A stretch of DNA of 64,000 bases, taken from NCBI RefSeq assembly GCF_014595995.2, contig NZ_CP063989.1, positions 1,798,001 to 1,862,000 on the forward strand, written 5' to 3'. Below are positions 34,219 through 55,963 of this stretch, piece after piece. The DNA comes from Actinomyces respiraculi. GTDB lineage: Bacteria > Actinomycetota > Actinomycetes > Actinomycetales > Actinomycetaceae. The stretch's first letter is position 1, and each line of letters starts with the position of its first letter. Position numbers and translations under genes: made by a program. The notes under the pieces are model-generated. The model had not been told where the DNA came from. It was given only the letters and a program-made list of their open reading frames with translations, and searched no databases.

Positions 34219-35949
34219 CTGACTTTTGACACTGTTAGTGACCCGTTTTGTTGGTGAGGCTGGCCAGGATGTTGGCGGCTTGGCCTTGGGGTTGGCTGGT
34301 GGCTGTGAGCTCGTGTCCGTTGATGTTGATGGTGACGTCGATGACGGGTCGTAGGGCTTGCACGATCTTCTTGATGGAGACACCGGTCGCGGCCTGGAGG
34401 TGGCGGGCTACGGCTAGGGCGGCGGTGACCACGGTCAGGTGGGCCTCGATGGCTTGGCGGGTGTGGTGGAAGACCGGGCGGGCGCGTAGGTCGTGTTTGG
34501 ACATGCGGAAGGACTGTTCCACCTTCCACAGATTGTGGTAGTCGGCCACGATCTCGCTGGCGCTCATAGTGCGGGCGGGGATGTTGGTGACATAGCCCTT
34601 TAGCCCTTCTAGACGCCGCGCTCTGGCCAGGGCCTTTTCATCCAGGCCTCTTCCTGAGGAGCTGGTGGTGACAAACCTGGCTGAGCGCATGGCTTTTTCC
34701 CCGGCAACGATGGCTCTGGCCCGGTTTTCCTGGAGGGTAAGGGTCTTGCTGTCCCTGGCGGCGCGTTTACGCGAGTAGACCCAGATCGCCCGCCACGAGC
34801 CCGGGTGTGTCTGTGGGTGCCAGACCGGTTCGTCCTTGAGGTGCTGATTGCGTTCTTGTTTACCACCGTGGCGTGGGGTGATTGTGTCAATGGTCTGCCC
34901 GTCGGTGAAGCAGTCCCCGTGCCAGAAGAAGTGCGCTTGGAGGTCCAGGGGTGCCTTGGTCTGTCTGGCCCCGACAATGAAGCCGTAGCCGGCTTGGTCA
35001 AGCGCCTGCAAGTTAGCGCTGGAGAGCATCCCGGCATCAGCTACGACTACTAGGTGCTCCGCCCCGGCGCGTTGCTTGAAGGCCTCGATGGTAGGGATGA
35101 GGGTGTGGGTCTCGGCTTTGTTGCCTTCCCAGCAGGAGACCTCCAACGGGAAACCGTTACGGTCTGCTAGCAGGCCGACCAGGATCTGGGGATCCACGCG
35201 GCGTTCTTTGGAGTAGCCGACCTTGCGCAGCGCGTCTTCTTTCTCTGCTTCGAAGTACAAGGTAGTCACGTCGTACAACACCAAGGACACATCCCCACAG
35301 GCCAGGCAATGCTCCAAGGCCGCACGAGCCAGAGCAGAGCGGTAATCACGCTCCACGCAACGGGTCAGGGCACGAAAGTGGGTGCGTGAGTCAAAGGACT
35401 CCAGCCCCAAGCTGGTCAACATCGCTGCTATAGCGCTCTTGCTAGTGGGTTCGATCAGCCGGGCCAGGACAATCTGCTTGAAGGCCTCATCGTCCACCGC
35501 TTGGTCAAAGCCAAGATCCTGCCAAGCATCGCAAAGGACTTGCCACAACAAGCCGCTGCGGTGGGAAACCAGGTGCGCTGCGCCAATGGCCGTCTGCTGG
35601 TAGTCCCCATGCACACCCGGCCTGGAGCCTGCCGACCCCGACGGGAGGTCCAGGTCCAGCTGGAGCTGGCCGGGATGGAGCTTTTCTTGCGCGACCTGGA
35701 CCAAGGCAGCAAGCTCGCCAGGGGTATGAGCAGAACCGATGTGCTCAACAACCTTGTTACGTCGGCCTTCCTTGACCGCGATCTGCACGGCCGTGGCCCC
35801 CGAGGCGGTACGCACTTGACGGATGAACGGGCTCACAAACCCCATCATAACCAGCCTCCTTAGTGACCCAACCCGCCCCCTGCAGCCGCACAAAATCAAC
35901 GAAAACCCAACCAAAACCACCCAGCCCCACACCAAGTGTCAAAAGTCAG
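34219..35949. mobile_element. Intact IS1634-family insertion sequence with long target duplication
   Basis: A 1731-bp element bounded by a perfect 15-bp terminal inverted repeat (CTGACTTTTGACACT at the left, its complement at the right). It encodes one full-length transposase on the minus strand. A 49-bp identical direct repeat abuts both ends. IS1634 from Mycoplasma is known for unusually long, variable target duplications, and this insertion shows the same behaviour in an actinobacterium. Confidence 0.92.
34235..35848 (-). CDS. IS1634-family transposase
   Basis: A 537-aa DDE transposase of the IS4-related group. Catalytic Asp residues are in LVLYDVTTLYFEAE and VVVADAGMLSSANL, and the C-terminal Glu region is LWKVEQSFRMSKHDLRARPVFH, a typical Y/W-x-x-E-x-x-FR signature. 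The start at 35848 (ATG-ATG) follows AAGGAGG. The frame is intact, so the element is probably mobile. Confidence 0.92.
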   Translation of the reverse strand: MMGFVSPFIRQVRTASGATAVQIAVKEGRRNKVVEHIGSAHTPGELAALVQVAQEKLHPGQLQLDLDLPSGSAGSRPGVHGDYQQTAIGAAHLVSHRSGLLWQVLCDAWQDLGFDQAVDDEAFKQIVLARLIEPTSKSAIAAMLTSLGLESFDSRTHFRALTRCVERDYRSALARAALEHCLACGDVSLVLYDVTTLYFEAEKEDALRKVGYSKERRVDPQILVGLLADRNGFPLEVSCWEGNKAETHTLIPTIEAFKQRAGAEHLVVVADAGMLSSANLQALDQAGYGFIVGARQTKAPLDLQAHFFWHGDCFTDGQTIDTITPRHGGKQERNQHLKDEPVWHPQTHPGSWRAIWVYSRKRAARDSKTLTLQENRARAIVAGEKAMRSARFVTTSSSGRGLDEKALARARRLEGLKGYVTNIPARTMSASEIVADYHNLWKVEQSFRMSKHDLRARPVFHHTRQAIEAHLTVVTAALAVARHLQAATGVSIKKIVQALRPVIDVTININGHELTATSQPQGQAANILASLTNKTGH

Positions 35950-41903: not shown

Positions 41904-44108
41904 ATGCCCCACAAGACCCACTCCCCCCGTACCACTGGCCGCGTCACCATGCCCATCCAGGAGGGCATCGACGACCAGATCCGCGAGCTCGTCACCGCCC
42001 TCGGTGCCGATGCCGTGCGCAACTCGGACGGCACCTGGCTGCCCGAGATCGCCTCCGAGCTCGTCGACAGGGTCTACTCGACCTACTTCCCGGCCCGTGG
42101 GGACCAGGACTGGGCCCTCGCCCACCCCGACACCCTCGTCAACCAGTACCTCATGAGCGCGCGCGTGACCGCCATGGGCCAGGGCCCGCTCACCATCGAC
42201 GTCCTCGACGGCTATTTCCGCGAGCAGTTCGTGCCCTGCTACGAGCGCGTCGAGCGCTTCTGGGAGGTCATCGACCGCACCAGTGGCGAGGTCGTGGCAC
42301 CCAGCGGCTGGAGCGTGGACGAGTCCACCGGCGTGCTCACCATCGCCGAGCCGACCCCGTGGCACGAGTACACGGTCGGCTTCCTGGCCGACCAGGTGTG
42401 GGACACGACCCAGATGTACAACTACATCACCAACGGCTGGGGCGAGACGGACCCCACCCGGGTCAAGGAGCGCCCCTACGACGTGCGCAAGAACGGCGTG
42501 TGGGAGTACGCCCAGCAGGCCCTGCGCGAGTGGCTCGAGGCCCACCCGGAGGTCGACGTCGTGCGCTTCACAACGTTCTTCTACCACTTCACCATCGCCT
42601 TCAACACGCACGGCGAGGAGAAGTTCGTCGACTGGTTCGGCTACTCCGCCTCCGTGTCTCCCGAGGCCATCGACGCCTTCGAGGCCGAGTACGGCTACGC
42701 GCTGCGCGCCGAGGACTTCATCGACGCCGGCTACTACAACAACCCCTTCCGCGTGCCGAGCCCGCGCTTCCGCGACTGGATCAGCTTCCAGTCCCGCTTC
42801 GTCGCCGACAAGGCGAAGCGGCTGGTGGACATCGCCCACGAGGCCGGCCGTGAGGCCATGATGTTCCTGGGCGACAACTGGATCGGCACCGAGCCCTTCG
42901 GCGAGCACTTCCCCTCCATCGGGCTCGACGCCGTCGTCGGCTCGGCCGGCTCGGCGGCCACGACCCGCCTCATCGCCGAGATCCCGGGCGTGCGCTACTC
43001 CGAGGTCCGCTTCCTGCCCTACTTCTTCCCGGATGTCTTCAACCACGACGGCGCAGACCCGGTCGGCCAGGCCAACGACTCCTGGCTCACCTCCCGCCGC
43101 GCCATCGTGCGCAAACCCCTGGACCGCATGGGCTACGGCGGCTACGTCTCCCTGGCCCTGGAGTTCCCGGAGTTCATTGACCGCATTACCGACATCTGCC
43201 AGGAGTTCCGCGACATCCACGAGCAGTCCGGCGGCGAGCTGCCTGAGAACGCCCCCTTCGCCGTCGGCATCCTCAACGCCTGGGGACCCCTGCGCTCCTG
43301 GCAGACACACATGGTCGCCCACGCCCTGTGGTACAAGGCCGCCTACTCCTACGTCGGCGTCATCGAGGCGCTGGCCGGCCTGCCGTTCAAAGTCCGCTTC
43401 CTGTCCTTCGACGAGGTGCGTGAGCAGGGCGTGCCCGAGGAGGTCGGCGTCCTCATCAACGCCGGTGCCGCCGGCACCTCCTACTCCGGGGGCGAGGCCT
43501 GGGCCGACGGACGCCTGGCCGAGATCCTGCGCGAGTGGGTCGCCGCCGGGCACGGCCTCATCGGTGTGGGCGAGCCCGCCGCCTACGACAAGGGCGGCTC
43601 CTTCATCCAGCTCTCGGATGTCCTGGGTGTCGACCGCGAGCGCCAGCTCACCCTCAACACGGACCGCTACCCCACCCTGGTCGAGGGCCACGTCATCACG
43701 GCGGACCTTAAGCGGGCCTCCGCCTTTGATGACGGCGAGGGCGCGGGCGGTGACGTCTACACGGTCAGCGAGCGCACGCAGGTGCTCTCCTACGACGACG
43801 GCACAGTCAAGATCGCCGCCAACGAGTTCGGCGCGGGTCGAGCGGTCTACTTCTCCGGCCTGCCGTACTCCTTCACCAACTCGCGCACCCTGCAGCGCGC
43901 CCTGTACTGGGCGGCCGGGCGCGAGGACCTGCTGAGCAGGTGGTTCACCACCCACCCGGCCACAGAGGTCGCCTGGTACCCGGGCCGGCGCAAGATGCTC
44001 GTGACCAACAACGCCTACGAGGCCGTGACGACGACGGTCCTGGGTGACGGGCGCGAGTGGCAGCTGACGCTCGAGCCCATGGGCTCGGCCTGGGTCGACG
44101 TCGACTGA
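41904..44108 (+). CDS. 1,3-beta-galactosyl-N-acetylhexosamine phosphorylase (GH112)
   Basis: Cytosolic phosphorylase (734 aa, typical) that splits galacto-N-biose or lacto-N-biose with phosphate into galactose-1-phosphate and GalNAc or GlcNAc. Recognised by the full-length match to the bifidobacterial LnpA/GnpA type: RVTMPIQEGIDDQIRELV, FFYHFTIAFNTHGEEKFVDW, and the catalytic Asp region MFLGDNWIGTEPFG. The start follows AAGGAGCACG. It stands alone: no importer, N-acetylhexosamine kinase or Leloir gene is adjacent, unlike in bifidobacteria. A strong terminator follows. Confidence 0.93.
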   Translation: MPHKTHSPRTTGRVTMPIQEGIDDQIRELVTALGADAVRNSDGTWLPEIASELVDRVYSTYFPARGDQDWALAHPDTLVNQYLMSARVTAMGQGPLTIDVLDGYFREQFVPCYERVERFWEVIDRTSGEVVAPSGWSVDESTGVLTIAEPTPWHEYTVGFLADQVWDTTQMYNYITNGWGETDPTRVKERPYDVRKNGVWEYAQQALREWLEAHPEVDVVRFTTFFYHFTIAFNTHGEEKFVDWFGYSASVSPEAIDAFEAEYGYALRAEDFIDAGYYNNPFRVPSPRFRDWISFQSRFVADKAKRLVDIAHEAGREAMMFLGDNWIGTEPFGEHFPSIGLDAVVGSAGSAATTRLIAEIPGVRYSEVRFLPYFFPDVFNHDGADPVGQANDSWLTSRRAIVRKPLDRMGYGGYVSLALEFPEFIDRITDICQEFRDIHEQSGGELPENAPFAVGILNAWGPLRSWQTHMVAHALWYKAAYSYVGVIEALAGLPFKVRFLSFDEVREQGVPEEVGVLINAGAAGTSYSGGEAWADGRLAEILREWVAAGHGLIGVGEPAAYDKGGSFIQLSDVLGVDRERQLTLNTDRYPTLVEGHVITADLKRASAFDDGEGAGGDVYTVSERTQVLSYDDGTVKIAANEFGAGRAVYFSGLPYSFTNSRTLQRALYWAAGREDLLSRWFTTHPATEVAWYPGRRKMLVTNNAYEAVTTTVLGDGREWQLTLEPMGSAWVDVD

Positions 44109-44233: not shown

Positions 44234-44417
44234 GTGCCGTACCTCACCCGACGCGGCCTCATTCCGCGGTTTCTCCTGTCTCAGGAGTCCAGGAGGCACA
44301 CCTTAAGAGCTCTCTCATTCTGACCTCATCGTGACCTTGACCGATCTCGGGATCGTCTGAACAGGCCCCCCTGTGGGGTCCACCCGCCACCAACCCGGTC
44401 GATCACCAGGAGGCACC

Positions 44418-45611
44418 ATGAGCGCCGCGCCCATCAGAGTGATGCTCTACAGCCACGACGCACAGGGACTGGGCCACCTGCGTCGCAACCTCGCCCTGGC
44501 CCACCACCTGTCCCAGCACCTCCCCGAGCTCGCCCAGGCTCCGGTCACCGGCCTGCTCGTCGCGGGGCTGACGCCCGGCGAGGGCTTCGAGGTGCCCGAC
44601 GGCTTCGACTGGCTCGTGCTTCCCGGCATCGTCAAGTCACCCGACGGCTACCAGCCCCGGCGCCTGAACTCGACGCGTGCCCAGCTGCGCCACCTGCGCT
44701 CCCAGGTGATCGAGGCGGCCCTGATCTCCTTCGCCCCCGACCTGTTCATCATCGACCGCCACCCCTACGGCGTGCGCCAGGAGCTGCTGGAGCCGCTGCG
44801 GGCGCTCCGGCGCCACCACCCCGACACCCGTGTGGTCCTGGGGCTGCGCGAGGTCCTGGACCACCCGGCCACCATGGAGCGCGAGTGGGCCAACCTCGGC
44901 CCGAGCCAGCAGCTGCGCGAGCTCGTCGACCAGGTGTGGGTCTACGGCGACCCCACCGTGCACGACCTCACGAGCACCGGGGAGGGCCCGATGGTCCTGG
45001 CCGACCGGATGCGCTTCACCGGTTACCTGTCGCTCGGCAAGCGCGCCGTCGATTTCTCGGGCACCAGTTCCGTGCAGGTGCCCGGCCTCTTCGTGCTCAC
45101 CACGGCCGGCGGGGGCTCGGACGCGCTGCCGCTGCTCCTGCAGTCCGCCGCCATGGAGCCGCCCGCGGGGCACCAGCACATCGTCGTCTGCGGGCCCCAG
45201 CTCAGTGAACCGGACGTCGCGCAGGTCGCCCGGGTCGCCGGGCCGCGCACCCGGGTCCTGAGGACCTGGCCGGGGCTGAGCCATCACGTCAACGAGGCTG
45301 CGGCCGTCATCTCCATGGGCGGCTACAACACCGTGTGCGAGATCCTGTCGACCTCGGTCCCCTCCCTCATCGTGCCCCGAGAGACGCCCCGCCTCGAGCA
45401 GCTCATCCGGGCGCGCTCCCTGGAGCGCTGCGGCGCCGTTGAGGTGCTGCGCTTCTCGGAGATGACCCCTGCGGCACTGGGACAGTGGGCGGCCTCGGCT
45501 GTCGGCCGGACCGTCAACCGTGAGCGCATCGATCTTGCCGGCCTGTCCACCGTGCCGCTGCTGGCGCACGAGCTGCTCGCCGAGGACGTTGAGGAGGGGC
45601 GGGCAGCATGA
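44418..45611 (+). CDS. MurG-like (GT28-type) glycosyltransferase
   Basis: A 397-aa protein with N-terminal VMLYSHDAQGLGHLRRNLALA and a C-terminal nucleotide-sugar domain with TTAGGGSD, and VISMGGYNTVCEILSTSVPS like the MurG/GT28 donor site. No membrane segment; probably peripheral on the inner membrane. It is the first gene of a nine-gene plus-strand operon; ATG follows CAGGAGGCACC and its end overlaps the next start by 4 nt. The acceptor and donor are unknown; a UDP-sugar donor is likely, and a UDP-glucuronate source is encoded at 52045. Confidence 0.85.
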   Translation: MSAAPIRVMLYSHDAQGLGHLRRNLALAHHLSQHLPELAQAPVTGLLVAGLTPGEGFEVPDGFDWLVLPGIVKSPDGYQPRRLNSTRAQLRHLRSQVIEAALISFAPDLFIIDRHPYGVRQELLEPLRALRRHHPDTRVVLGLREVLDHPATMEREWANLGPSQQLRELVDQVWVYGDPTVHDLTSTGEGPMVLADRMRFTGYLSLGKRAVDFSGTSSVQVPGLFVLTTAGGGSDALPLLLQSAAMEPPAGHQHIVVCGPQLSEPDVAQVARVAGPRTRVLRTWPGLSHHVNEAAAVISMGGYNTVCEILSTSVPSLIVPRETPRLEQLIRARSLERCGAVEVLRFSEMTPAALGQWAASAVGRTVNRERIDLAGLSTVPLLAHELLAEDVEEGRAA

Positions 45612-46816
45612 CCCGCATCGGCTACGTCCTCAAGGTCTACCCCCGCTTCTCTGAGACCTTCATCGTCACCGAAATGCTGGCGCGCGAGGCACTGGGCGAC
45701 GACCTGTCCGTCTACGCCCTGCGTCCCACCACCGACAGCCGCTTCCACCCCGAGATCGCACGCGTGCAGGCACGCGTGAGGTGGATCAGTCGCCCTTGGA
45801 AGGGCATCGAGATGTGGGAGCAGATGGCCCAGTGCCTCGACGGTGACGACCTCGACCGCTTCGCGCAGATCCTTCCGGCGCTACTCACCCTGCCCGGGGA
45901 CGAGGTCGCCCAGGGCCTGGAGCTGGCCCGTCAGGTGCGGGCCGACGGCATCGAGCACCTGCACGCCCACTTCGCCTCCCTGGCGGGGCGGATGGCGTGG
46001 ATCGCCTCCTCGCTCACAGACGTGCCCTACACCGTCACCACCCACGCCAAGGACATCTTCCACGAGTCGGTGGACCCGACATGGCTGCGGCGCATCTGCG
46101 TCGACGCCGACCGGGTCATCGCCATCAGCAGGTACAACGAGGAGTTCCTCAACCGGCTTCTCGCGGGAAGCCGGGCACGCATCAGCCTGCGCCACAACGC
46201 CCTCGAGCTCGACCGCTTCCCCTACCGCGACCCCGAGCCCCCGACCACGCCGCTGCGGGTGTGCGCGGTGGGCAGGCTCGTCGTCAAGAAGGGCTTCGCC
46301 GACCTCGTCCGGGCGACGCGGATCCTCGTCGACGATGGCGTGCCGGTGCACGTGGACATCGCCGGTGAGGGCGATGAGTACCAGGCACTGCGTGAGCAGA
46401 TCCGCTCGCTGGAGCTGACGGAGCACGTGCGCCTGCTGGGGCCCATGACCCAGCAGGAGGTACGCACCCTACTGGCCCGCTCCGACGTCTTCGCCGCCCC
46501 CTGCGTCGAGGCGCCCGACGGCAACCTCGACGGCCTTCCCACGGTCGTGCTGGAGTCCATGGCCTGCGGGACCCCCGTGGTGGCCACCGCCGTGTCGGGT
46601 CTGCCCGAGGTGGTGCGCGACGGCGAGACGGGCGTGCTCCTGCCCCCGGGCGTGCCCAAGGAACTGGCCCGTGCGCTGCGTGACATCGCCTCCGGAGCCA
46701 CCGACACCCGTCGGCTGGCCCGGGCCGCCCGTAGCCTCATCGAGCAGCAGTTCGACTCACGTCACCAGGCCGCGGTCCTGTCAGGCTGGCAGGCACCGGG
46801 ACGACAGGGGCGATGA
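45608..46816 (+). CDS. GT4-family glycosyltransferase
   Basis: A 402-aa retaining glycosyltransferase. N-terminal KVYPRFSETFIVTEML is the WsaF/colanic-acid type start; HAHFASLAGRMAWIASSL, VGRLVVKKGFADLVRATRIL and DGLPTVVLESMACGTPVVATAVSGLPEVV mark the GT-B donor domain with its E-x7-E-like pattern. It overlaps the genes on both sides by 4 nt, so production is coupled. Predicted to add a sugar to an exported glycan or glycolipid. Confidence 0.92.
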   Translation: MTRIGYVLKVYPRFSETFIVTEMLAREALGDDLSVYALRPTTDSRFHPEIARVQARVRWISRPWKGIEMWEQMAQCLDGDDLDRFAQILPALLTLPGDEVAQGLELARQVRADGIEHLHAHFASLAGRMAWIASSLTDVPYTVTTHAKDIFHESVDPTWLRRICVDADRVIAISRYNEEFLNRLLAGSRARISLRHNALELDRFPYRDPEPPTTPLRVCAVGRLVVKKGFADLVRATRILVDDGVPVHVDIAGEGDEYQALREQIRSLELTEHVRLLGPMTQQEVRTLLARSDVFAAPCVEAPDGNLDGLPTVVLESMACGTPVVATAVSGLPEVVRDGETGVLLPPGVPKELARALRDIASGATDTRRLARAARSLIEQQFDSRHQAAVLSGWQAPGRQGR

Positions 46817-47976
46817 GCATGCGTATCGCCTACGTCTGCACAGACCCCGGCATCCCGGTCTTCGGCACCAAGGGCGCCTCGGTGCACGTCCAGGAGGTCA
46901 TCCGCGAGATGCGCGCCCGGGGCCACGAGGTGACCCTCTACACGGCCCGCACCGGCACGCACCGTCCCGCCGATCTCGCCGACCTCACGGTGCACACGGT
47001 GCCGGTCCGCGCCAACGACCCGGCCTCACGCGAGCACTGCCAGCTGGAGGTCTCCCACCGGATCGCCCAGATGGTGCGCGATCAGGGGACGGACATGGTC
47101 TACGAGCGCTACTCGCTGTTCAGCGCGGCGCTGGCCGAGATCACCCCGTCGTTGGGCGTCCCCGGTGTCCTGGAGGTCAACTCCCCTCTCATCGACGAGC
47201 AGCGCCGCCACCGTCACCTGGCGGACGAGGCCCTGGCCTGGGAGCTGTTGCGCCTGCAGGTCACCGGCGCGACCAGCACCGTGTGCGTCTCCGACCCGGT
47301 GGCCCAGTGGGTGCGTGACGCCCTGACCCGGGCTGGCCACGCCCCGGGTAGTGACCCGGCCGGGCGCGTGCGCACCGTCCCCAACGGGGTGAGCGTGCGA
47401 CGCATCCAGCCCCAGCCCGAGGACCCCGAGCGGGTCGTCGTGACCTTCGTGGGCACCCTCAAGCCGTGGCACGGGGTGGCCGACCTCCTGGAGGCAGCGA
47501 GCCTGTCCCACGGAGGATGGCAGCTGCGCGTGCTGGGTGACGGACCCGAGATGACCTCCCTCACGCAGCGGGCGGCCACGCTTGGGGTGGAGGTTGACAT
47601 GCGCGGCGCCATCGCGCCCGAGCTCATGCCCGCCCACCTGGCCGGCTCGGCCATCGGCGTCGCCCCCTACCCGGACCTGGGTGGGCAGGAGCAGCAGTAC
47701 TTCTCCCCCCTCAAGGTGCTGGAGTACATGGCGGCCGGGCTCGCCGTGGTCGCCTCCGACGTCGGACAGGTTCTACAGCTCGTAGGTGACGCGGGCGTCC
47801 TCGTGCCGCCCTCGGACCCGCAGGCACTGGCCGAGGCGCTCGACGCTCTGGCGGCGGACCCTGCCAGGCGCAGCGACCTGGGACGGCGTGCACGCCGTCA
47901 CGCCGTCGAGGCGCACTCCTGGAGCTCTGTGGTGCGCACCATCCTCGAACCCGTGGAGACCACCCGTGAGCAGTGA
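46813..47976 (+). CDS. GT4-family glycosyltransferase
   Basis: A 387-aa GT-B enzyme, diverged from the preceding one. N-terminal RIAYVCTDPGIPVFGTKGASVHVQEV, VYERYSLFSAAL, and donor-site VTFVGTLKPWHGVADLLEAA and SPLKVLEYMAAGLAVVASDVG. It overlaps the preceding gene by 4 nt and the ABC exporter start by 11 nt. The KPWHG and PLK-EYMAAGLA motifs resemble mannosyl- or glucosyltransferases of exported glycans; the sugar is not known. Confidence 0.9.
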   Translation: MSMRIAYVCTDPGIPVFGTKGASVHVQEVIREMRARGHEVTLYTARTGTHRPADLADLTVHTVPVRANDPASREHCQLEVSHRIAQMVRDQGTDMVYERYSLFSAALAEITPSLGVPGVLEVNSPLIDEQRRHRHLADEALAWELLRLQVTGATSTVCVSDPVAQWVRDALTRAGHAPGSDPAGRVRTVPNGVSVRRIQPQPEDPERVVVTFVGTLKPWHGVADLLEAASLSHGGWQLRVLGDGPEMTSLTQRAATLGVEVDMRGAIAPELMPAHLAGSAIGVAPYPDLGGQEQQYFSPLKVLEYMAAGLAVVASDVGQVLQLVGDAGVLVPPSDPQALAEALDALAADPARRSDLGRRARRHAVEAHSWSSVVRTILEPVETTREQ

Positions 47977-49828
47977 CGACGTCATCGGGGGCGGGACCCA
48001 GGAGGCCCCTCACTCCCAGCCGAGCGGCCGCGAGCCCTCGGCGCTGCGACAGACCCTGAGCCTCATCCGGCCCGACGCCGCCCCGCACTGGCGTCTCATG
48101 CTCGGCGGCACCGCCGCGCTCCTGGCAGAGGTCGGCTTCCGCGCCCTCGAGCCCTGGCCCATGAAGATGGTCGTCGACTTCGTCGTCGACTCCCTGGGCG
48201 CCCGCACCGGCATCACCTCGGCCGGCATCGGGCTGCTGCTCGCGCTGGGCACCGCCCAGGTGGCGGTCGTGGCGGCACGCGCCCTGTTCAACTACATGGC
48301 GACCCTGGCCTTCACGCTCGTGGGCTCGCGCACCTCCGCCTCCTTGCGGGCGCGGGCCTTCCGCCACGTCCAGGGCCTGTCGCAGCAGTTCCACGCCCGC
48401 AACCGCAGCGCCGACACCGTCCAGCGTCTCGTCTCGGACGTCAACCGTATGCAGGAGGTGGCGGTGACCGCGGGCCTGCCCCTGGCGGCCAACGTCCTGA
48501 CCCTGCTCGTCATGCTCATCGTCATGGTCGTGCTCGACCCGCTGCTGGCCACCGTCGTGCTCCTGGCGGTGGGGGTCTTCACCCTGACGTCCTCGGGCAG
48601 CTCCAAGCGGATCACAGCCGCCTCCCGGCGCAGCCGACGCTCCGAGGGCAACCTGGCCAACACCGCCCAGGAGGCCCTCGGCGCCATCAAGGTGGTCCAG
48701 GCCTACGGGCTTGAGCCCCTCCTGCAGGAGCGCTTCAGCGGCGTCAACACGACCTCTTTGCGCGAAGGAGTCCAGTCCCGGCGCATCGCAGCGCGCCTGG
48801 AGCGTCGCACCGACGTCATCGTGGGAGTGGCGGCTGCCGTCGTCATGATCGGGGGCGGGCTGCGCGTCCTTCAGGGTGCCATGACGCCGGGAGACCTGGT
48901 GCTGTTCACCACCTACCTGCGCACCACCATGAAGCCCCTGCGGGACATGGCCAAGTACACCGGTCGTATCTCCCGGGCCACCGCCTCAGGGGAGCGTGTC
49001 GCCGCCCTCATGGCCATCAAGCCCGAGATCGTCTCACCGCAGCAGGGCTTCATGCTGCACAACGTGCGGGGCATGCTGCGCTTCGACGGAGTCAGGGCAG
49101 CCTACGAGGGCACCGAGGTGCTGCACGGCATCAGCCTGACCGTCCGCCCCGGTGAGCACGTGGCACTGGTCGGTCCCTCGGGATCGGGTAAGTCAACGCT
49201 CGCCTCCCTTGTGGTACGGGCCATGGACCCCACTGCGGGCACCGTGAGCCTCGATGGCCAGCCACTGACGGAACTGAGCCTGAGCCACCTGCGGGCCCAG
49301 GTCTCGGTGCTGCACCAGGAGGCGGTCCTGCTCACCGGCAGCATCAGGGAGAACATCCGGCTCTCACGCCCTGACGCGAGCGACTGGGAGGTCGAGCAGG
49401 CGGCGCGTGCAGCCTTCGCCCACGACTTCATCTGCTCGCTGCCCGAGGGCTACGACACCTCGGTCGGTGAGAGGGGCGGGACCCTGTCCGGCGGCCAGCG
49501 CCAGCGCGTGGCGATCGCCCGGGCCCTGCTGAGGGACTCCAGGATCGTCGTGCTCGACGAGGCCACGACGGGGCTGGACCCCGACGCCGCCCTGGTCGTT
49601 CTCGACGCCATCGACCGCCTCGTCGAGGGCCGCACCACCCTGACCGTCACTCACGACCCGCAGGCGGCGCTGCGCGCCGACCGCGTCGTATGGCTCCAGG
49701 ACGGCAGGATCCTCATGGACGGCACCCCCGACAGGCTGCTGGCGTCCTCGGCGGAGTTCCGCTCCTGGGCCGGGACGACACCCACCGCCGCCCCGCGCGC
49801 CCTCACACGCGTGGAGGGCCGAGCATGA
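47966..49828 (+). CDS. ABC exporter, fused membrane and ATPase domains
   Basis: Type I exporter half-transporter (620 aa) expected to act as a homodimer. Six hydrophobic segments in residues about 40-330 are followed by an ATPase with Walker A GPSGSGKST, signature LSGGQRQR and Walker B IVVLDEATTG. GTG at 47966 is preferred because it lies inside the previous gene's end (11-nt overlap) and puts the first membrane segment at the normal distance; earlier codons overlap the glycosyltransferase in another frame. It likely flips or exports the glycan or glycolipid built by the three upstream enzymes. Confidence 0.92.
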   Translation: MSSDDVIGGGTQEAPHSQPSGREPSALRQTLSLIRPDAAPHWRLMLGGTAALLAEVGFRALEPWPMKMVVDFVVDSLGARTGITSAGIGLLLALGTAQVAVVAARALFNYMATLAFTLVGSRTSASLRARAFRHVQGLSQQFHARNRSADTVQRLVSDVNRMQEVAVTAGLPLAANVLTLLVMLIVMVVLDPLLATVVLLAVGVFTLTSSGSSKRITAASRRSRRSEGNLANTAQEALGAIKVVQAYGLEPLLQERFSGVNTTSLREGVQSRRIAARLERRTDVIVGVAAAVVMIGGGLRVLQGAMTPGDLVLFTTYLRTTMKPLRDMAKYTGRISRATASGERVAALMAIKPEIVSPQQGFMLHNVRGMLRFDGVRAAYEGTEVLHGISLTVRPGEHVALVGPSGSGKSTLASLVVRAMDPTAGTVSLDGQPLTELSLSHLRAQVSVLHQEAVLLTGSIRENIRLSRPDASDWEVEQAARAAFAHDFICSLPEGYDTSVGERGGTLSGGQRQRVAIARALLRDSRIVVLDEATTGLDPDAALVVLDAIDRLVEGRTTLTVTHDPQAALRADRVVWLQDGRILMDGTPDRLLASSAEFRSWAGTTPTAAPRALTRVEGRA

Positions 49829-50967
49829 GCGCCCCGGTGGCCGGCGTCCTGAGGACCGTGCTGGACGCCGACGCCCTGAGCGAGCTGGTCAGCCGACCTG
49901 TGCGCGCCGTGCGGCTGCGAGTCAAGCCCGAGGTCTCCCTCCTCATGGCCCTGGCGGAGCGCGACTCGGGCCGCACCGCCGGCTGGGCCCGGGTCCTGTG
50001 GCCCGTCTCCGCCTCCAAGGCCACCGAGGTCCGGCTGCGCGCCGAGCGCTACGGGCAGCAGGTGCTCACCCGCACGCTGCCCGACGGGCTCATCCTCCAG
50101 GCAGGCCCCGAGCTCGCCGATCCCAAGCTCGCCGACCATTTGGGCCGTGCCCGCGAGCGCGGGCTGCTGGCAGGTATCGCCCCCGAGGCGGTGCTGCGTT
50201 ACAACCCGGCGCGGCGCCTGGTGCTGCGCACCGCAGACGGGGTGTTGCGCGTGCGCACCGGCGGCGGACACCGCATCGATCAGATCCACCGCGCCGTCGG
50301 CATGGTCGTCCCCGTGCCACGGCTCATCGACCTGGGTGGGTCCTGGGACCCCGAGCACTACAGCCTTCAGGAGCTGTGCGGCCGCACCGACCTGGAGCAG
50401 TCGCCGAGCCAGGAGGACACCCGCCGGGCCGGAGCCCTGCTCGCCCAGTTGCACGCCTCCACGTCCTCACTGCCCGACGACGTGCGTGCCGGGCTGCGAA
50501 GCGCTCCTGTCTCAGCCGAGGCGCTCGTGCGGATCCACGCCCAGGTCCTTGAGCCCCTGGCCCCCGCGCTGGCCCGCAGGACCCGCGCACTCGTCGCCGT
50601 GCTGCCGACGCGGCTCGAGGGAGCACCGGTCCTCATCCACGGCGACGCCTCCCCGGACCAGTTCCTCAGGGACCCGGCCAGCCGGTCCCTGTGGCTGACC
50701 GACTTCGACCGGGCCCGGCTCGCTCCGGCCGCCGTCGACCTGGGCTCCTACCTGGCCGTCTGCCCGCCGGAGACGGGCACCGCCCTGCTGGAGGGATATC
50801 AGCAGGAGGCCGGGCGGGTACCGGACAGGCGGCCGCTGCACGCCGCCACCGTCCTGGCCGAGCTCTCGCGCCTGACTGAGCCGCTGCGGCACGCGGACCC
50901 GGCCTGGGCCGACGCCATCAGTGTCCGGCTCTCACGTCTGGAGGACACGGGAGGGCAGCGGGCATGA
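49825..50967 (+). CDS. APH/choline-kinase-like phosphotransferase, first of a pair
   Basis: A 380-aa kinase-fold protein. Catalytic loop VLIHGDASPDQFL and metal-binding LWLTDFDRARLA follow the Brenner and DFG-like patterns, but the usual Asn of the loop is Gln. ATGA overlap with the ABC gene. The substrate is not known; in this operon a sugar, a lipid-linked sugar or a hydroxylated head group is more likely than an antibiotic. Resistance by aminoglycoside phosphorylation is unlikely given the operon. Confidence 0.82.
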   Translation: MSAPVAGVLRTVLDADALSELVSRPVRAVRLRVKPEVSLLMALAERDSGRTAGWARVLWPVSASKATEVRLRAERYGQQVLTRTLPDGLILQAGPELADPKLADHLGRARERGLLAGIAPEAVLRYNPARRLVLRTADGVLRVRTGGGHRIDQIHRAVGMVVPVPRLIDLGGSWDPEHYSLQELCGRTDLEQSPSQEDTRRAGALLAQLHASTSSLPDDVRAGLRSAPVSAEALVRIHAQVLEPLAPALARRTRALVAVLPTRLEGAPVLIHGDASPDQFLRDPASRSLWLTDFDRARLAPAAVDLGSYLAVCPPETGTALLEGYQQEAGRVPDRRPLHAATVLAELSRLTEPLRHADPAWADAISVRLSRLEDTGGQRA

Positions 50968-52034
50968 GCACTGAGAAGAACAGGAGCACCCCCGCCGTGC
51001 AGCACCCCGAACCCGGCACCGACACGTACGAGGCCCTGTCCCGCCTGCCGGGCATCAGGCGCGCCTGGCCCGCCCGGGATGGCTCGATCAGCATCGAGTG
51101 CCGCGACGAGCAGGGGCGGCTCCGAGCGGGGACCCTGGCACCGCAGGGCAGCGTCAGCATGCTGCCCTACGCGACGGACCCGGCCCTGCCCGCCCTGGCC
51201 CCACCGCTGCACGGTGAGCTCGTCGTCCACCGTGCGGCTCGGCGCGCGGTCGTGCTTGAGCCCGAGCGGGTGCGCAAGGCCACGCGATCCGGGCGCGCCG
51301 CCCCGTCGTCGGCTGCGCTGGCCGCCTTCGGGGCCTTCACCGCCATGGGTTTGAGGGTCCCCCGTGTCCTTGCCGTCGGCGACACCTACATCGACTTGGA
51401 GAGGCTGCCGGGGCGCAGCCTGGCCGAGCTGGGTGACGACGGGCTGGAGGGCTGGACGCAGCTGGCGGGCGTGTGGGGCGGGTTGTCGCGGCCCGACGCC
51501 GACCTGCCCGTCCACGGTCCCCGGCAGGAGGCCGAGGTCCTGCGTGGCTGGTTCGGCAACGCCAGCCGCCGCGGGCTGCTGACGGGCCTGGTCGAGGACC
51601 CCGAGGCCCTCGAGCATGCGGTGGAGGAGGTCTGCGCCACGCTCGTGCAGGACACGCCCGGGTCCATGGCCCTCAGCCACCGCGACCTGCACGACGGCCA
51701 GCTGCTGTGGAACGGTGAGGTGCTGTCCCTCATCGACCTGGACACGGCTTGCCTGGCCGAGGCCGAGCTGGACCTGGGCAACCTCATCGCCCACGCCGAG
51801 CTCATGGGCGTCCAGGGGCGTCTGAGCGATCGGGGTGCCGAGCGCCTCTCCCCCGTCCTGGATCTCATGTGTTCCGCGCTGCCCGTACACGCCGACCGTC
51901 TGAGCATCTACCGCCGCAGCGCCGCGCTGCGACTCATCTTCGTCCACGCCTTCCGCCCCGGCGCGAGGACGTGGCTCCCCACCTGGGCGCGCAGGAGCCT
52001 GGCCCCCTTCCGTCGTCCTGCATCATCGATCTAA
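50964..52034 (+). CDS. APH/choline-kinase-like phosphotransferase, second of a pair
   Basis: A 356-aa kinase-fold protein, only distantly similar to its neighbour. Catalytic loop LSHRDLHDGQLLW and metal-binding LIDLDTACLAEAELDLGNLIAH are clear; again Gln replaces the canonical loop Asn. The N-terminal lobe contains LVVHRAARRAVVLEPERVRKA with a likely ATP-binding Lys. It starts in an ATGA overlap. Paired kinases of this type suggest sequential or heterodimeric phosphorylation of one product. Confidence 0.82.
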   Translation: MSTEKNRSTPAVQHPEPGTDTYEALSRLPGIRRAWPARDGSISIECRDEQGRLRAGTLAPQGSVSMLPYATDPALPALAPPLHGELVVHRAARRAVVLEPERVRKATRSGRAAPSSAALAAFGAFTAMGLRVPRVLAVGDTYIDLERLPGRSLAELGDDGLEGWTQLAGVWGGLSRPDADLPVHGPRQEAEVLRGWFGNASRRGLLTGLVEDPEALEHAVEEVCATLVQDTPGSMALSHRDLHDGQLLWNGEVLSLIDLDTACLAEAELDLGNLIAHAELMGVQGRLSDRGAERLSPVLDLMCSALPVHADRLSIYRRSAALRLIFVHAFRPGARTWLPTWARRSLAPFRRPASSI

Positions 52035-52044
52035 GGAGCGCACC

Positions 52045-53361
52045 ATGCGTCTGACAGTTGTCGGCTGCGGCTACCTGGGCGCGGTTCACGCCGCCGCCAT
52101 GTCCCACCTGGGCCACGACGTCCTGGGAATCGAGACCGACCCCCTGCGGGTCGAGGCCCTGCGCCAGGGGCGGGCCCCCTTCTACGAGCCCGGTCTGCCC
52201 GAGCTGATCCAGGAAGGTGTCGCCAGCGGTCGGCTGCGGTTCACGTGTGAGCCCACCGCTGAGGACGTGGCCGGGGCAGATGTCCACTTCATTGCGGTAG
52301 GCACCCCCCAGAGCCACGGCTCGGGCAAAGCGGACCTGTCACAGGTGCGTGCTGCGGTCGACATGCTCGCCTCGTTCCTGGACGGCCAGCGCCTGCCGCT
52401 GGTGGTCGGCAAGTCGACGGTGCCGGTGGGAACGTCCGCCGAGCTCGCCGGGGCGCTGGCAGGACGGGCCCGTCTGGTGTGGAACCCCGAGTTCCTCCGG
52501 GAGGGATTCGCCGTCGAGGACACGCTCCACCCCGACCGCATCGTCTACGGTCTGCCCGACTCCCCCCAGGAGGCACAGGCCGCACAGTCGGTGCTGGACG
52601 AGGTCTACGCCCAGATCCTCGACGAGGACGTCCCGCGCATCCTCACCGACTACGCCACCGCCGAGCTCGTCAAGACCTCCGCCAACGCCTTCCTGGCCAT
52701 GAAGATCAGCTTCATCAACGCCATGGCCGGCATGTGCGAGGCCGCAGGGGGCGACGTGACGGTCCTGGCCCGGGCCCTGGGCCTGGACGCACGGATCGGC
52801 GGACGTTTCCTGCGGGCCGGGGTGGGCTTCGGCGGCGGCTGCCTGCCCAAGGACATCCGCGCCCTGGCGACGCGGGCCTCAGAGCTGGGGGTTGAGCCCC
52901 TCACGCGTCTGCTCGACCAGGTCGACTCCATCAACCAGGGTCAGCGCGACCGTGTCGTCGACATGGCCGTCGAGTGCTGCGGGGGCAGCGTCGAGGACGC
53001 GTCCGTCACCGTCCTGGGGGCCACCTTCAAGCCCAACAGCGACGACCTGCGCGACTCGCCCTCCCTGGAGATCGCCGAGCGGCTGTCACAACTGGCCGCC
53101 CACGTCACGGTCTACGACCCGCAGGCCGCCGAGCAGGTGCGTCGGCGCAACCCCGACCTGGCCGTGGCCGAGGACCCCTGGAAGGCACTGGAGGGTGCCG
53201 ACCTGGTGATCCTCGGCACCGAGTGGCAGGAGCTCATCGGGCTCGACCCCCATCGAGCCGCCCAGCTCGTCGCCCGTCCGGTCATCATCGACGCCCGCAA
53301 CGCGCTCGACCCCACGGCGTGGCGCGCGGCCGGATGGTCGTACCGGGGCATGGGACGGTGA
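52045..53361 (+). CDS. UDP-glucose 6-dehydrogenase
   Basis: Cytosolic NAD-dependent enzyme (438 aa) that oxidises UDP-glucose to UDP-glucuronate. N-terminal Rossmann fold VVGCGYLGAVHAAAM, active-site Cys in GVGFGGGCLPKDIRAL near residue 260, and C-terminal GATFKPNSDDLRDSPSLEIAERL. The start follows AAGGAGCGCACC. UDP-glucose is the expected substrate, although GDP-mannose and UDP-HexNAc relatives share the fold. It supplies a uronate donor, so the glycan of this operon probably contains glucuronate. The histidine-kinase gene overlaps its stop. Confidence 0.93.
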   Translation: MRLTVVGCGYLGAVHAAAMSHLGHDVLGIETDPLRVEALRQGRAPFYEPGLPELIQEGVASGRLRFTCEPTAEDVAGADVHFIAVGTPQSHGSGKADLSQVRAAVDMLASFLDGQRLPLVVGKSTVPVGTSAELAGALAGRARLVWNPEFLREGFAVEDTLHPDRIVYGLPDSPQEAQAAQSVLDEVYAQILDEDVPRILTDYATAELVKTSANAFLAMKISFINAMAGMCEAAGGDVTVLARALGLDARIGGRFLRAGVGFGGGCLPKDIRALATRASELGVEPLTRLLDQVDSINQGQRDRVVDMAVECCGGSVEDASVTVLGATFKPNSDDLRDSPSLEIAERLSQLAAHVTVYDPQAAEQVRRRNPDLAVAEDPWKALEGADLVILGTEWQELIGLDPHRAAQLVARPVIIDARNALDPTAWRAAGWSYRGMGR

Positions 53362-54908
53362 GCACGACGATACTCGTGCGACCGGGCAGCTCCGTGAGTA
53401 CGACAGCACCGCTCGCCCGCTCTGGGCACACTGGTGTCGTGGACGTCGAGCAGATCAAGCCCTCGGCCACCGTCGGTGTACGGGTCATGGCCGCCATCAT
53501 CCTGGTGTCGAGCATCGCCCTGCTCACCTCCGGCGCCATCGTGTGGGTGCTGGGCCGCCAGACGCTGCACGCCGACATCGACGACCAGCTCGACCGCGGT
53601 CGCAAGCACATCGAGCAGCTGGCGGCGGCGGGCATCGACCCCAGCAACGGGCAGAGCCTGACCGACGCCTCCAGCGTGGCTCGCGCCTACATCCGGCAGT
53701 CCGTCGTGGGCGCGGGCGAGAGCGTGCTGAGCTTCGAGGCGGAGGAGCTCAGCTCGCACTTCTCCTCCGACGCCACGCACCGTCAGCCCCAGCAGGACGA
53801 GCAGCTGGTGGAGATCCTGGCGTCCCTGAGCACGGCGAGGGACTCCACCACGACGACGGTGCACACCGATGAGAGCACCTACCGGGTCATGGTCGTGCCG
53901 CTGCGCGACGGCACGAACCAGGTGGCGCTGGCGCACGTCGTCGACCTGGACACCGCCGAGGCCTCGTTGCGGCGCACCATGACGCTGTACGGCGTTGCGG
54001 CGGTCATTACCGTCGCCCTGGTCACCGCGCTGGCATGGTTCGTCGTCGAGCGGCTCCTGGCGCCGATCGGTGAGCTGCGCCAGGCCACCGAGTCGATCGG
54101 GCCTCAGGACCTGAGCACCCGCGTCCCCGTGCGCGGACGCGACGACCTGGGGATCCTGGCCCGGGCCGTCAACGGGATGCTCGACCGGGTCCAGCGCTCG
54201 GTGGAGGCCGAGCGCCGCATGCTCGACGACGTCGAGCACGAGCTGCGCACGCCCATCACCGTCATCCGCGGCCACCTGGAGCTGCTCGACCCCGAGGACA
54301 CCGAGGACGTCAGCCGGACCCGCAGCCTTGCCATCGAGGAGCTGGACCGCATGGGGATGATGGCCAACGACCTGCTGGAGTTCGCCAGGACCACGGGGAC
54401 CGATTCCTTCGTACCCGCCCCCACCGACGTCGGCGACCTGACCACGAGTGTTTTCGACAAGGCGCAGGTCCTGGGCCCGCGCGTGTGGGTCCTGGAGGAC
54501 AAGGCTCTCGCCGTGTGCGAGCTCGACTCCCAGCGTGTGAGCCAGGCCTGGCTACAGCTGGCGGCCAACGCCGTGAAGTACTCGGAGGTCGGCTCGCGTG
54601 TCGCCCTGGGGTCGCGGACCACGGACAGCGAGCTGCTCCTGTGGGTGACGGACGAGGGTATTGGCATCGCCCCCGAGGAGCTGACGCTCGTGCGCCAGCG
54701 CTTCTGGCGCAGCGCCAGCGCCGAGCGCATGGCCACAGGATCGGGCCTGGGACTGAGCATCGTGGAGAACATCGTCGCCGCTCACCGGGGCACCTTGGAC
54801 ATCAGTTCCGTCGTCGGCACCGGTTCGCGGTTCACCATGCGGATACCGCTGGAGCAGGATCCTGATCAGCAGCCGAGGACACGCATGACAAGGGGACACA
54901 AGCCATGA
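53358..54908 (+). CDS. Sensor histidine kinase
   Basis: Membrane sensor (516 aa from GTG 53358). Two membrane helices (near 45-65 and 205-230) flank an extracytoplasmic sensor of about 140 residues. A HAMP linker follows, then an H box with DVEHELRTPITVIRGHLELL, N box LQLAANAVKYSE, and ATP-lid motifs DEGIGIAPEE and GSGLGLSIV. GTG overlaps the stop of the UDP-glucose dehydrogenase gene (GTGA), so it belongs to the operon. A later GTG near residue 29 is an alternative start. Confidence 0.9.
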   Translation: MSTTILVRPGSSVSTTAPLARSGHTGVVDVEQIKPSATVGVRVMAAIILVSSIALLTSGAIVWVLGRQTLHADIDDQLDRGRKHIEQLAAAGIDPSNGQSLTDASSVARAYIRQSVVGAGESVLSFEAEELSSHFSSDATHRQPQQDEQLVEILASLSTARDSTTTTVHTDESTYRVMVVPLRDGTNQVALAHVVDLDTAEASLRRTMTLYGVAAVITVALVTALAWFVVERLLAPIGELRQATESIGPQDLSTRVPVRGRDDLGILARAVNGMLDRVQRSVEAERRMLDDVEHELRTPITVIRGHLELLDPEDTEDVSRTRSLAIEELDRMGMMANDLLEFARTTGTDSFVPAPTDVGDLTTSVFDKAQVLGPRVWVLEDKALAVCELDSQRVSQAWLQLAANAVKYSEVGSRVALGSRTTDSELLLWVTDEGIGIAPEELTLVRQRFWRSASAERMATGSGLGLSIVENIVAAHRGTLDISSVVGTGSRFTMRIPLEQDPDQQPRTRMTRGHKP

Positions 54909-55570
54909 GCCGCATCCTGGTGGTGGAGGACGAGCCGCATATCGCCTCCTTCCTGCTCAAGGGCCTCAAGGCCGCAGGCTTCAGCGCCGAGGCCACGGCC
55001 TCGGGCAACGAGGCGATCGGCCTGGCCGTACACGACCGGGCCGACCTCATCATCCTCGACGTTGGCCTGCCGGACGTCGACGGGTTCACCGTCCTGGAGC
55101 AGATCCGAGGCCAGGGAGTGCGCGTTCCCGTCATCATGCTCACCGCCCGCTCCTCCGTGGAGGCCAGGGTCAAGGGCCTGGAAGGAGGGGCGGACGACTA
55201 CATGCCCAAGCCCTTCTCCTTCGAGGAACTGCTCGCCCGGGTGCGGCTGCGGCTGCGCGACGAGTCCCCGGCGAGCGATTCCGACCCGGTACGCCTGATC
55301 CACGACGACCTGGCCCTGGACCTGCGCAGGCGGACCATGGAGGTCTCGGGGGCCACGGTCGAGCTCTCCGCCCGCGAGTTCGCCCTCGCCGAGACCTTCA
55401 TGCGTCACCCCGGACAGGTCCTGAGCAGGCAGCAGCTGCTGAGCGGGGTGTGGGGTTACGACTTCGACCCCGACTCCAATGTCGTCGAGGTCTACGTGTC
55501 CTACCTCAGGGCGAAGATCGGCAAGAAACGGATCCAGAACGTGCGTGGCATGGGCTACCGGCTCGTGTGA
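54905..55570 (+). CDS. OmpR-family response regulator
   Basis: A 221-aa regulator with an N-terminal receiver (ILVVEDEPHIASFLLKGL, phosphorylation Asp in LIILDVGLPDVDG, Lys in YMPKPFS) and a C-terminal winged helix (LSAREFALAETFMRHPGQVLSRQQLL, DSNVVEVYVSYLRAKIG). It overlaps the sensor kinase gene by 4 nt, forming a kinase-then-regulator pair. It probably controls the glycosyltransferase / exporter operon in which it lies. Confidence 0.95.
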   Translation: MSRILVVEDEPHIASFLLKGLKAAGFSAEATASGNEAIGLAVHDRADLIILDVGLPDVDGFTVLEQIRGQGVRVPVIMLTARSSVEARVKGLEGGADDYMPKPFSFEELLARVRLRLRDESPASDSDPVRLIHDDLALDLRRRTMEVSGATVELSAREFALAETFMRHPGQVLSRQQLLSGVWGYDFDPDSNVVEVYVSYLRAKIGKKRIQNVRGMGYRLV

Positions 55571-55633: not shown

Positions 55634-55963
55634 TCAGTCGTCGTCGACGTCATTGATGTCATCGCGGTCGTCGATGTCATCGCGGTCGTCGATGTCATCG
55701 TGGTCGTCGTCGGCCGGCGAGACGGGCACAGCGGGGACGACGGGTGCCTCGGCGGGCGCACCGCCTTCCTGCCCCGCCGGGGTCGCGTTCTCGGGTGCGG
55801 CCGGGGTGGCGGCGCCCGGGGTGGTGATGTCGATGCCGGGCCTGACGTCTCCCCCGCGGTAGGAGCCGAGCACCACCGACAGGACCCAGGTGAGCAGGAG
55901 CGAGGCCACGAGGATGATCAGGACGGCGATCAGGCGTCCACGAGTGCGTACCAGACGTGTCAT
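55634..55963 (-). CDS. Small membrane protein with Asp-rich repeat tail
   Basis: A 109-aa protein with one membrane helix (LIAVLIILVASLLLTWVLSVVL near residue 10-31), an Ala/Pro/Thr linker and a C-terminal tail of Asp-Asp-Ile/Arg repeats (DDIDDRDDIDDRDDIND). The tail is encoded by an 18-bp tandem repeat. The ATG follows GAAGGAGG. It is 19 nt downstream of proA. The tail could bind Ca2+ or act as a charged spacer; no family is recognised. Confidence 0.65.
   Translation of the reverse strand: MTRLVRTRGRLIAVLIILVASLLLTWVLSVVLGSYRGGDVRPGIDITTPGAATPAAPENATPAGQEGGAPAEAPVVPAVPVSPADDDHDDIDDRDDIDDRDDINDVDDD
55655..55708. repeat. 18-bp tandem repeat, three units
   Basis: Units GATGTCATCGCGGTCGTC at 55655-55672 and 55673-55690 and a one-base variant at 55691-55708, in frame within the small membrane protein gene. 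Confidence 0.85.

Follow-up and report, generated by a model that had tools for sequence, protein, structure and literature searches.

A conserved six-gene glycosyltransferase, exporter and kinase module in Actinomyces and other bacteria, and its putative role in glycan export

Gene content and conservation of the operon

The subject of this study is a nine-gene operon in a 64,000-nucleotide stretch of the Actinomyces respiraculi genome (contig NZ_CP063989.1, positions 1,798,001 to 1,862,000; hereafter the window, from whose first letter positions are counted). Sequence reading and a Pfam scan confirmed nine plus-strand genes at 44418–55570 (Table 1), predicted to encode three glycosyltransferases (GT28, GT4a and GT4b), an ATP-binding cassette (ABC) exporter, two kinases (K1 and K2) of the aminoglycoside phosphotransferase (APH) fold, a UDP-glucose 6-dehydrogenase (UGD), a sensor histidine kinase (HK) and a response regulator (RR). 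The Pfam scans of ABC, K1 and HK were run from the upstream starts 47786, 49690 and 52974, respectively. All nine proteins had Pfam matches, and the family names given in the original prediction hold. The coordinates also bear out the overlaps that it had described at seven of the eight junctions: six are 4-nt overlaps and one is an 11-nt overlap (GT4b/ABC), while K2 and UGD are separated by a 10-nt gap. The start codon of GT28, ATG at 44418, is preceded by AGGAGG. The exporter, which had been called fused, does carry its membrane and ATPase domains on a single chain, which is the usual half-transporter.

Table 1. Features of the operon and its surroundings in the window
Feature	Position	Strand	Description	Evidence
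GT28	44418-45611	+	MurG/YjiC-like glycosyltransferase; first core gene	PF04101 (Glyco_tran_28_C), 32.9 bits
GT4a	45608-46816	+	GT4 glycosyltransferase, EpsE/WcaL-like	PF00534, 122.5 bits
GT4b	46813-47976	+	Second GT4 glycosyltransferase	PF13692, 88.4 bits
ABC	47966-49828	+	MsbA-type exporter half-transporter, membrane domain and ATPase	PF00664 (ABC_membrane), PF00005 (ABC_tran)
K1	49825-50967	+	APH-fold kinase, motif HGDx4Q ... DFD	PF01636, 62 bits
K2	50964-52034	+	APH-fold kinase, motif HRDx4Q ... DLD	PF01636, 34.4 bits
UGD	52045-53361	+	UDP-glucose 6-dehydrogenase, FGGGCLPKD segment; exchangeable module	Three UDPG/MGDP dehydrogenase domains; TIGR03026 over cut-off
HK	53358-54908	+	Membrane sensor histidine kinase; exchangeable module	HAMP/HisKA/HATPase
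RR	54905-55570	+	OmpR/PhoB-type response regulator; exchangeable module	PF00072 (Response_reg), PF00486 (Trans_reg_C)
CTCAT-N6-CTCAT	44314-44329	+	Direct repeat, 11-bp register; candidate RR binding site	Read in sequence
Lacto-N-biose phosphorylase gene	41904-44108	+	Just upstream of the operon	PF09508, 593 bits
Small predicted membrane protein gene	55634-55963	-	Asp-rich repeated tail; convergent with RR	
DDE transposase gene	34235-35935	-		

The first six genes, GT28, GT4a, GT4b, ABC, K1 and K2 in this order, constitute a portable core. The window and loci L044–L083 served to build a hidden Markov model of each of the nine proteins, and these models were scanned over 77 stretches (the window and 76 loci), each of which had been chosen for a match to K1, K2 or GT28 or as the neighbor of one. 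Of the 77 stretches, 52 had all six core genes in order, or 47 once near-copies were merged. This linkage far exceeds chance, and it is near certain that the conserved six-gene module is real. In 32 of the 47 non-redundant loci, UGD followed K2 with no other of the nine families between them (in Escherichia coli an outer-membrane gene intervenes), and an HK-RR pair lay on the strand of the core in 30. The earlier statement that the whole set behaves as one unit is correct in that a conserved unit exists, but that unit is really the six-gene core with exchangeable add-ons. The neighborhood check across actinobacteria proposed with it gave a positive answer, as the linkage is widely conserved and not confined to one genome.

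The 25 stretches without the full core order are loci cut by contig ends (L063, L114, L116–L119 and L121), broken or decayed loci (L061, L067 and L070), variant loci (L110, L112 and L115), related stretches of Alphaproteobacteria and Nitrospirota (L084, L086–L089, L123, L124 and L126), one rearranged locus (L120), one fragment (L129) and two partial loci of the same genome, G013 (L079 and L131). In L061, GT4a is split across two frames. L112 was left out of the count because the kinase part of its ABC-kinase fusion was matched by the K2 model and not by the K1 model; that kinase has a K1-type motif and grouped with K1 in the tree described below. The two partial loci of G013 are complementary: L079 contains a fused GT28-GT4a, GT4b, ABC and K2, and L131 contains GT28, GT4a, ABC, K1, HK and RR. 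Among the tabulated loci not cut by contig ends, L079 is the sole one with three glycosyltransferases and the exporter but one kinase missing, and the K1 of this genome is found in L131.

The hosts of the core were Actinomycetaceae, Propionibacteriaceae, Rothia, a Corynebacterium metagenome-assembled genome (MAG), further classes of the phylum, two Alphaproteobacteria and E. coli plasmids. GT28 was detected in 33 of 49 genomes of the same genus (E<=1e-60) and, across the phylum, in 18 of 396 genomes from 15 of 237 genera (E<=1e-30, own genome included). Of 59 relatives, 27 had a K2 match at E<=0.001; within the genus these were 25 of 37 genomes, with the own genome and one decayed remnant counted. 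At the same threshold, K1 was matched in 11 of 296 genomes of the class, strongly in three only (the own genome, G231 and G040). The locus is thus frequent within the genus and of scattered occurrence elsewhere. A scan of named genomes for K1, which requires exact short peptides and therefore gives a lower bound, found at least 20 loci in Actinomyces, Propionibacterium, Arachnia, Rothia, Schaalia, Buchananella, [Pseudopropionibacterium], two Propionibacteriaceae MAGs and one Corynebacterium MAG. All 19 of these loci that reach the upstream genes keep the order GT28-GT4a-GT4b-ABC-K1-K2, the other being the contig-cut L063. Outside the class, the GT28 search found both GT4 genes, the ABC gene and two APH kinase genes in all eight stretches of at least 18 kb (L108–L113, L115 and L122, the last with GT28 in two frames); the rest, L120 aside, were cut by contig ends.

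A putative pathway for an anionic glycan

The gene set may encode a pathway of its own for an anionic glycan, secreted or part of the envelope, that is built in the cytosol, phosphorylated by K1 and K2 and exported by the ABC protein, a reading to which we give about even chances. In this pathway, the cytosolic GT28, GT4a and GT4b would build a short glycan, perhaps in that order, which is guessed from the gene order and the gene fusions. UGD would supply UDP-glucuronate as one donor, at least in the lineages that have UGD; K1 and K2 would use ATP to phosphorylate the glycan during or after its assembly, and the MsbA-type ABC protein would carry it across the cytoplasmic membrane. We infer the substrate of each enzyme and the order of the steps; likewise, the phosphate would be placed on the glycan rather than on a precursor, and the glycan would be free rather than lipid-linked.

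Both kinases are clearly predicted to have the APH fold. Their AlphaFold2 models had predicted local distance difference test (pLDDT) scores of 94 (K1) and 90 (K2), Foldseek matched both to antibiotic and choline kinases (probability 1.00, TM-scores of about 0.4–0.6), and both proteins combine the PF01636 match and the fold with catalytic HxDx4N/Q and DxD motifs. The HGDx4Q motif of K1 and the HRDx4Q motif of K2, each with DxD, mostly track the split between the two. The strict pattern was present in 35 of 38 K1 rows (exceptions L064, L067 and L081) and in 35 of 40 K2 rows (exceptions L051, L055, L065, L067 and L079). In K1 of L064 and K2 of L051 the motif is present with some letters changed, L067 is a decayed locus, and in L061 HAD replaces HGD and HRD in the two kinases. 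In a tree of 62 kinase cores, one branch (support 99/94) separated 28 K1 from 28 K2, each side including Actinomycetota, Paracoccus, Pseudorhodobacter and E. coli; another six APH rows, assigned to no group, fell on the K2 side. The split with mixed hosts on each side suggests that the kinase pair diverged before it spread. Judged from these sequences, K1 and K2 are two separate, old lineages with catalytic motifs, although the tree alone is no proof of joint transfer.

Fusions of core genes into single open reading frames were observed for GT28 with GT4a (L045, L052 and L079), GT4a with GT4b (L078), ABC with an APH kinase (L108 and L112) and K1 with K2 (L085 of Paracoccus aestuarii and L125 of Pseudorhodobacter). 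Of the five adjacent core pairs, GT4b-ABC alone had no observed fusion. That adjacent core genes are fused in different lineages is strong evidence for one shared process. The fusions also bear on the possibility that K1 and K2 make sugar phosphates for nucleotide-sugar donors and that the exported glycan carries no phosphate. The top Foldseek match of K2 is the glucosamine kinase 6hwj, with maltokinase also among the matches, as such precursor kinases would have it. However, no nucleotidyltransferase is found among the nine proteins, and two loci have a fusion of a kinase with the exporter and two others a fusion of both kinases, which suggests that the kinases work at the export step and not upstream of it. 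We therefore consider precursor kinases unlikely. An extended form of the phosphorylated-glycan reading, in which the two dedicated kinases act at the exporter on the glycan made by the three cytosolic glycosyltransferases and license it for export by phosphorylating it, is offered only tentatively; the fusions would then be a trace of this coupling, and the module would work in Gram-positive and Gram-negative cells and travel on conjugative plasmids.

The Gram-negative forms were reached through the fused kinases and through GT28. The Paracoccus stretch reads GT28-GT4-GT4-ABC-double kinase with a divergent HK-RR pair. A search with the double kinase returned 13 plasmid records, 10 of them from Escherichia. 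In E. coli the order (L127 and L128; L130 was found by DNA) is GT28-GT4-GT4-ABC-APH-APH-alginate-export protein-nucleotide sugar dehydrogenase, and this stretch was present in 18 of 5,426 complete E. coli genomes, plasmid-borne every time. The alginate-export-type outer-membrane protein (PF13372, 84.3 bits) would take the glycan across the outer membrane. Window GT28 matched 275 plasmid records, mostly of Rhizobium (143) and Sinorhizobium (80) by name. Among the ten examined (H1, H2, H3, H7, H8, H16, H21, H32, H33 and H36), only H2 and H3 contained the core; H32 (L088) had APH genes in another arrangement, and the remaining seven showed no APH genes in the stretch. Window K2 had no match among plasmids, and E. 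coli K1 had none among phages.

Some stretches carried additional genes. The Nitrospirota plasmid stretch L088:9995-21062 contains GT28, GT4 genes and two APH genes together with alginate-lyase-family, radical SAM and histidine phosphatase genes. Right after the second kinase gene, two lineages from a different class have a sulfotransferase gene (L110:1790-2800 and L115:1617-2597), which counts in favor of the anionic-glycan reading. A subtilase gene directly precedes the core in two lineages from a different class (L115:10834-15172 and L122:11232-12701), and in L115 it is adjoined by a gene for a CHAT-TPR protein.

The dehydrogenases next to the core are of two subfamilies. Window UGD has three UDPG/MGDP dehydrogenase domains and a Cys in its FGGGCLPKD segment, which we take to be the catalytic one; it is closest to the TuaD and AglM models (TuaD 334 bits, under the cut-off of 700 of that model). 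The E. coli enzyme belongs to the other subfamily and is closest to PRK15057, of the UDP-glucose type, with 568 bits (cut-off 757). The presence of two subfamilies beside the same core argues that UDP-glucuronate matters to the product. Together with the exporter-kinase and kinase-kinase fusions and the alginate-export-type protein of E. coli, it makes a phosphorylated, uronate-containing and exported product, as originally predicted, the best-fitting reading; the glycolipid named in that prediction is not favored over a free glycan.

Such a lipid-anchored glycolipid would be made by GT28 acting on a membrane lipid like MurG, extended by the GT4 enzymes, phosphorylated on its sugars by the kinases and flipped by the ABC protein as by MsbA or PglK, as a Gram-positive counterpart of the phosphorylated lipid A core. 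It is possible but less likely. GT28, which starts with YSHDxxGLGHxRRN, had MurG as its best solved match in a profile search (1f0k, 3.6e-07), and MurG uses a lipid acceptor. Similarly, among the 25 best-listed of the 188 NCBIfam models matched by window ABC, the two best are MsbA-related, although the protein scores under the cut-off of each of the 25. GT4a also scores below the cut-offs of the EpsE and WcaL models after which it is described. No acyltransferase family was matched by the nine window proteins or the eight E. coli proteins, however, and the outer-membrane protein of E. coli better suits a released glycan than one kept in the inner membrane.

Several observations weigh against an exported, phosphorylated and uronate-containing glycan. 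The reading is based on genes and sequences. L120, of which 12 kb of 17 kb were taken, contains related genes in a different arrangement and is a counter-example to the core order, and in L110 and L115 one kinase is placed before the ABC gene and the other is without the standard motif pattern. Small molecules, glucosamine and maltose among them, are also substrates of APH-fold kinases, so that a precursor is a possible substrate. UGD does not follow K2 in 15 of the 47 cores. The core-bearing G231 and G483 had no UGD match in the whole genome at E<=1e-40, and G013 had a match at 30% only. UGD is encoded elsewhere in the genomes of G020, G029, G005 and G704 (57–61%), but also in three of six tested genomes without the locus (G028, G032 and G035). 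Either glucuronate is not needed everywhere, or it is supplied by another enzyme. Finally, the annotated Paracoccus stretch shows no outer-membrane export protein, and the PF13372 protein is known here from the E. coli plasmid lineage alone.

Regulation and genomic site

RR was 63–74% identical across the 12 of the 20 loci L044–L063 that have it. The CTCAT-N6-CTCAT repeat upstream of the operon resembles typical sites of OmpR/PhoB-type regulators, which are 11-bp direct repeats. When the 500 nt upstream were scanned and a score of 9 or 10 matching letters out of 10 was taken as presence, the repeat occurred in 24 of the 30 loci with HK-RR vs. 2 of 10 without (L051 and L108); the other 7 of the 47 loci, all without HK-RR, were unscored, as they had no start motif to place the upstream region. 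The background rate was 38 in 2350 for 500-nt stretches drawn at random from these loci. The co-occurrence of repeat and regulator gave a Fisher p of 0.0012, uncorrected for kinship, which serves as a description only, since the motif had first been recognized in the window and its relatives and the loci share ancestry. RR may directly bind the repeat, through which HK/RR, where present, would control the operon. The proposal that the sensor of the operon senses its product is unsupported, as nothing ties the histidine kinase to the product. Scans for promoter consensus sequences and Rfam families gave no match, and the terminator-like hairpin between the phosphorylase gene and the operon is at chance level (1 found vs. 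1.6 in shuffles).

The operon is flanked by proB-proA-type genes on one side and by nadD- and rsfS-type genes and a membrane protein gene on the other, names that were inferred from Pfam matches. In 20 of the 22 same-genus loci, proA was within the fetched flank, often with nadD opposite; the exceptions are L078 and L079. The decayed remnant L067 (genome G016) sits at the same proA/nadD site and contains fragments of GT28, GT4a, K1 and K2, with HK and RR open over their full lengths, suggesting that the regulator outlives the operon. Within the genus, the pattern suggests a locus that is ancient and has been lost from some members. The constant site and the detection of GT28 in most genomes of the genus are more like a long-kept surface function than a secondary-metabolite cluster, in which an exported glycosidic antibiotic would be phosphorylated by its producer for protection. 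Although both kinases share the fold of resistance kinases, no aglycone-building enzyme is among the nine proteins, and such self-resistance is very unlikely.

The gene just upstream of the operon encodes a lacto-N-biose phosphorylase, an enzyme of host mucin and milk glycan use. Catabolism of host glycans would account for this neighbor, and the match of GT4a to the Pfam family GT4-conflict (38.8 bits) could point to anti-phage defense. However, phosphorylase relatives were in the fetched flanks of only six of 40 loci (L044, L067, L068, L069, L071 and L083), and PADLOC returned nothing beyond two matches to ABC ATPases and a marginal one for HK, so that defense was rejected; either role is highly improbable. 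On the other side of the operon, the protein with the Asp-rich tail was matched in four of 40 loci (L044, L068, L069 and L071) and had no Pfam match. A transposase gene lies farther upstream (Table 1).

Significance and comparison with known systems

By kind, the locus is one for glycan assembly and export. In agreement with the statement that no named pathway has this combination of genes, neither a characterized pathway nor a description of the gene set was found in the open-license literature; subscription papers may describe the locus. If the reading as a phosphorylated, exported glycan is true, an unrecognized surface or secreted glycan is common to many actinobacteria, other classes of the phylum and some E. 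coli plasmids. Judged from species names, many of the actinobacterial hosts come from mouths and animals. Surface glycans affect adhesion, coaggregation and recognition by phages and the immune system, so a conserved phosphorylated glycan would represent a gap open to direct testing. With K1 and K2 next to GT28-GT4-GT4-ABC, this gene set has a usable sequence signature. The plasmid records examined label the core kinases "aminoglycoside phosphotransferase," which is misleading as a resistance label. In two papers on E. coli strains with these plasmids, no words beginning with "glycosyltransferase," "alginate" or "polysaccharide" occur in the main text (PMC10562709, PMC5009963).

None of the nine proteins matches a Wzx, Wzy or priming enzyme family at E<=0.001, which confirms both the reported absence of these enzymes and the conclusion that this is not a standard capsule locus; the eight E. 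coli proteins likewise had no match to Wzx, Wzy or priming phosphoglycosyltransferase families. Capsule export of the KpsMT type, which uses an ABC-2 permease and an ATPase as separate proteins together with partners of the KpsD/E type, was rejected, as the exporter is a single chain with PF00664 and PF00005. A synthase-dependent pathway, as for alginate or cellulose, is not indicated by the glycosyltransferases: the matches of the nine window and eight E. coli proteins are to GT28 and GT4 only, with no processive GT2 synthase. The AlgE-type outer-membrane channel of such pathways has a counterpart in the E. coli plasmid form alone and has no bearing on the Gram-positive window. As a candidate for K1, the class V lanthipeptide kinase LxmK was rejected, its model reaching 30.1 bits against an NCBIfam cut-off of 315.

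The E. coli form shares a PF13372 protein and a nucleotide-sugar dehydrogenase with the alginate secretion system of Pseudomonas (AlgE). That system includes a GT2-type synthase; none is among the eight E. coli proteins, which comprise an ABC exporter and kinases. The architecture of window ABC is the same as that of the lipid-linked glycan flippases MsbA and PglK and the glucan exporter ChvA/NdvA, none of which, to our knowledge, is tied to APH kinases. The lipopolysaccharide core kinases WaaP and KdkA phosphorylate sugars of an envelope glycan; they belong to different families from K1 and K2, and the likeness is a functional analogy only. Similar to the core, a module on plasmids of Sulfitobacter, two Azospirillum, Ruegeria, Shinella, Mesorhizobium and NGR234 (L084, L086, L087, L089, L123, L124 and L126) has adjacent relatives of GT28 and GT4a with an ABC protein nearby, and UGD is nearby in three of the seven (L084, L087 and L123). 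Different from the core, no APH kinase was seen in these stretches, four of them (L084, L086, L124 and L126) contain a histidine-phosphatase-family gene, and their ABC protein and third glycosyltransferase are distant relatives of those of the core or of another family.

The nearest published system, compared by its description, is the msbA2 operon of Sinorhizobium meliloti (SMb21188–21191), which encodes an acyltransferase, two glycosyltransferases and MsbA2, exports a polysaccharide of unknown structure and is activated by the two-component regulator ChvI (PMC3687685); the polysaccharide is also described as unknown in a further paper (PMC12239276). It differs from the core in having the acyltransferase, and kinases are unmentioned in that description. 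Similar to the operon of A. respiraculi, it combines glycosyltransferases with an MsbA-type exporter and two-component control.

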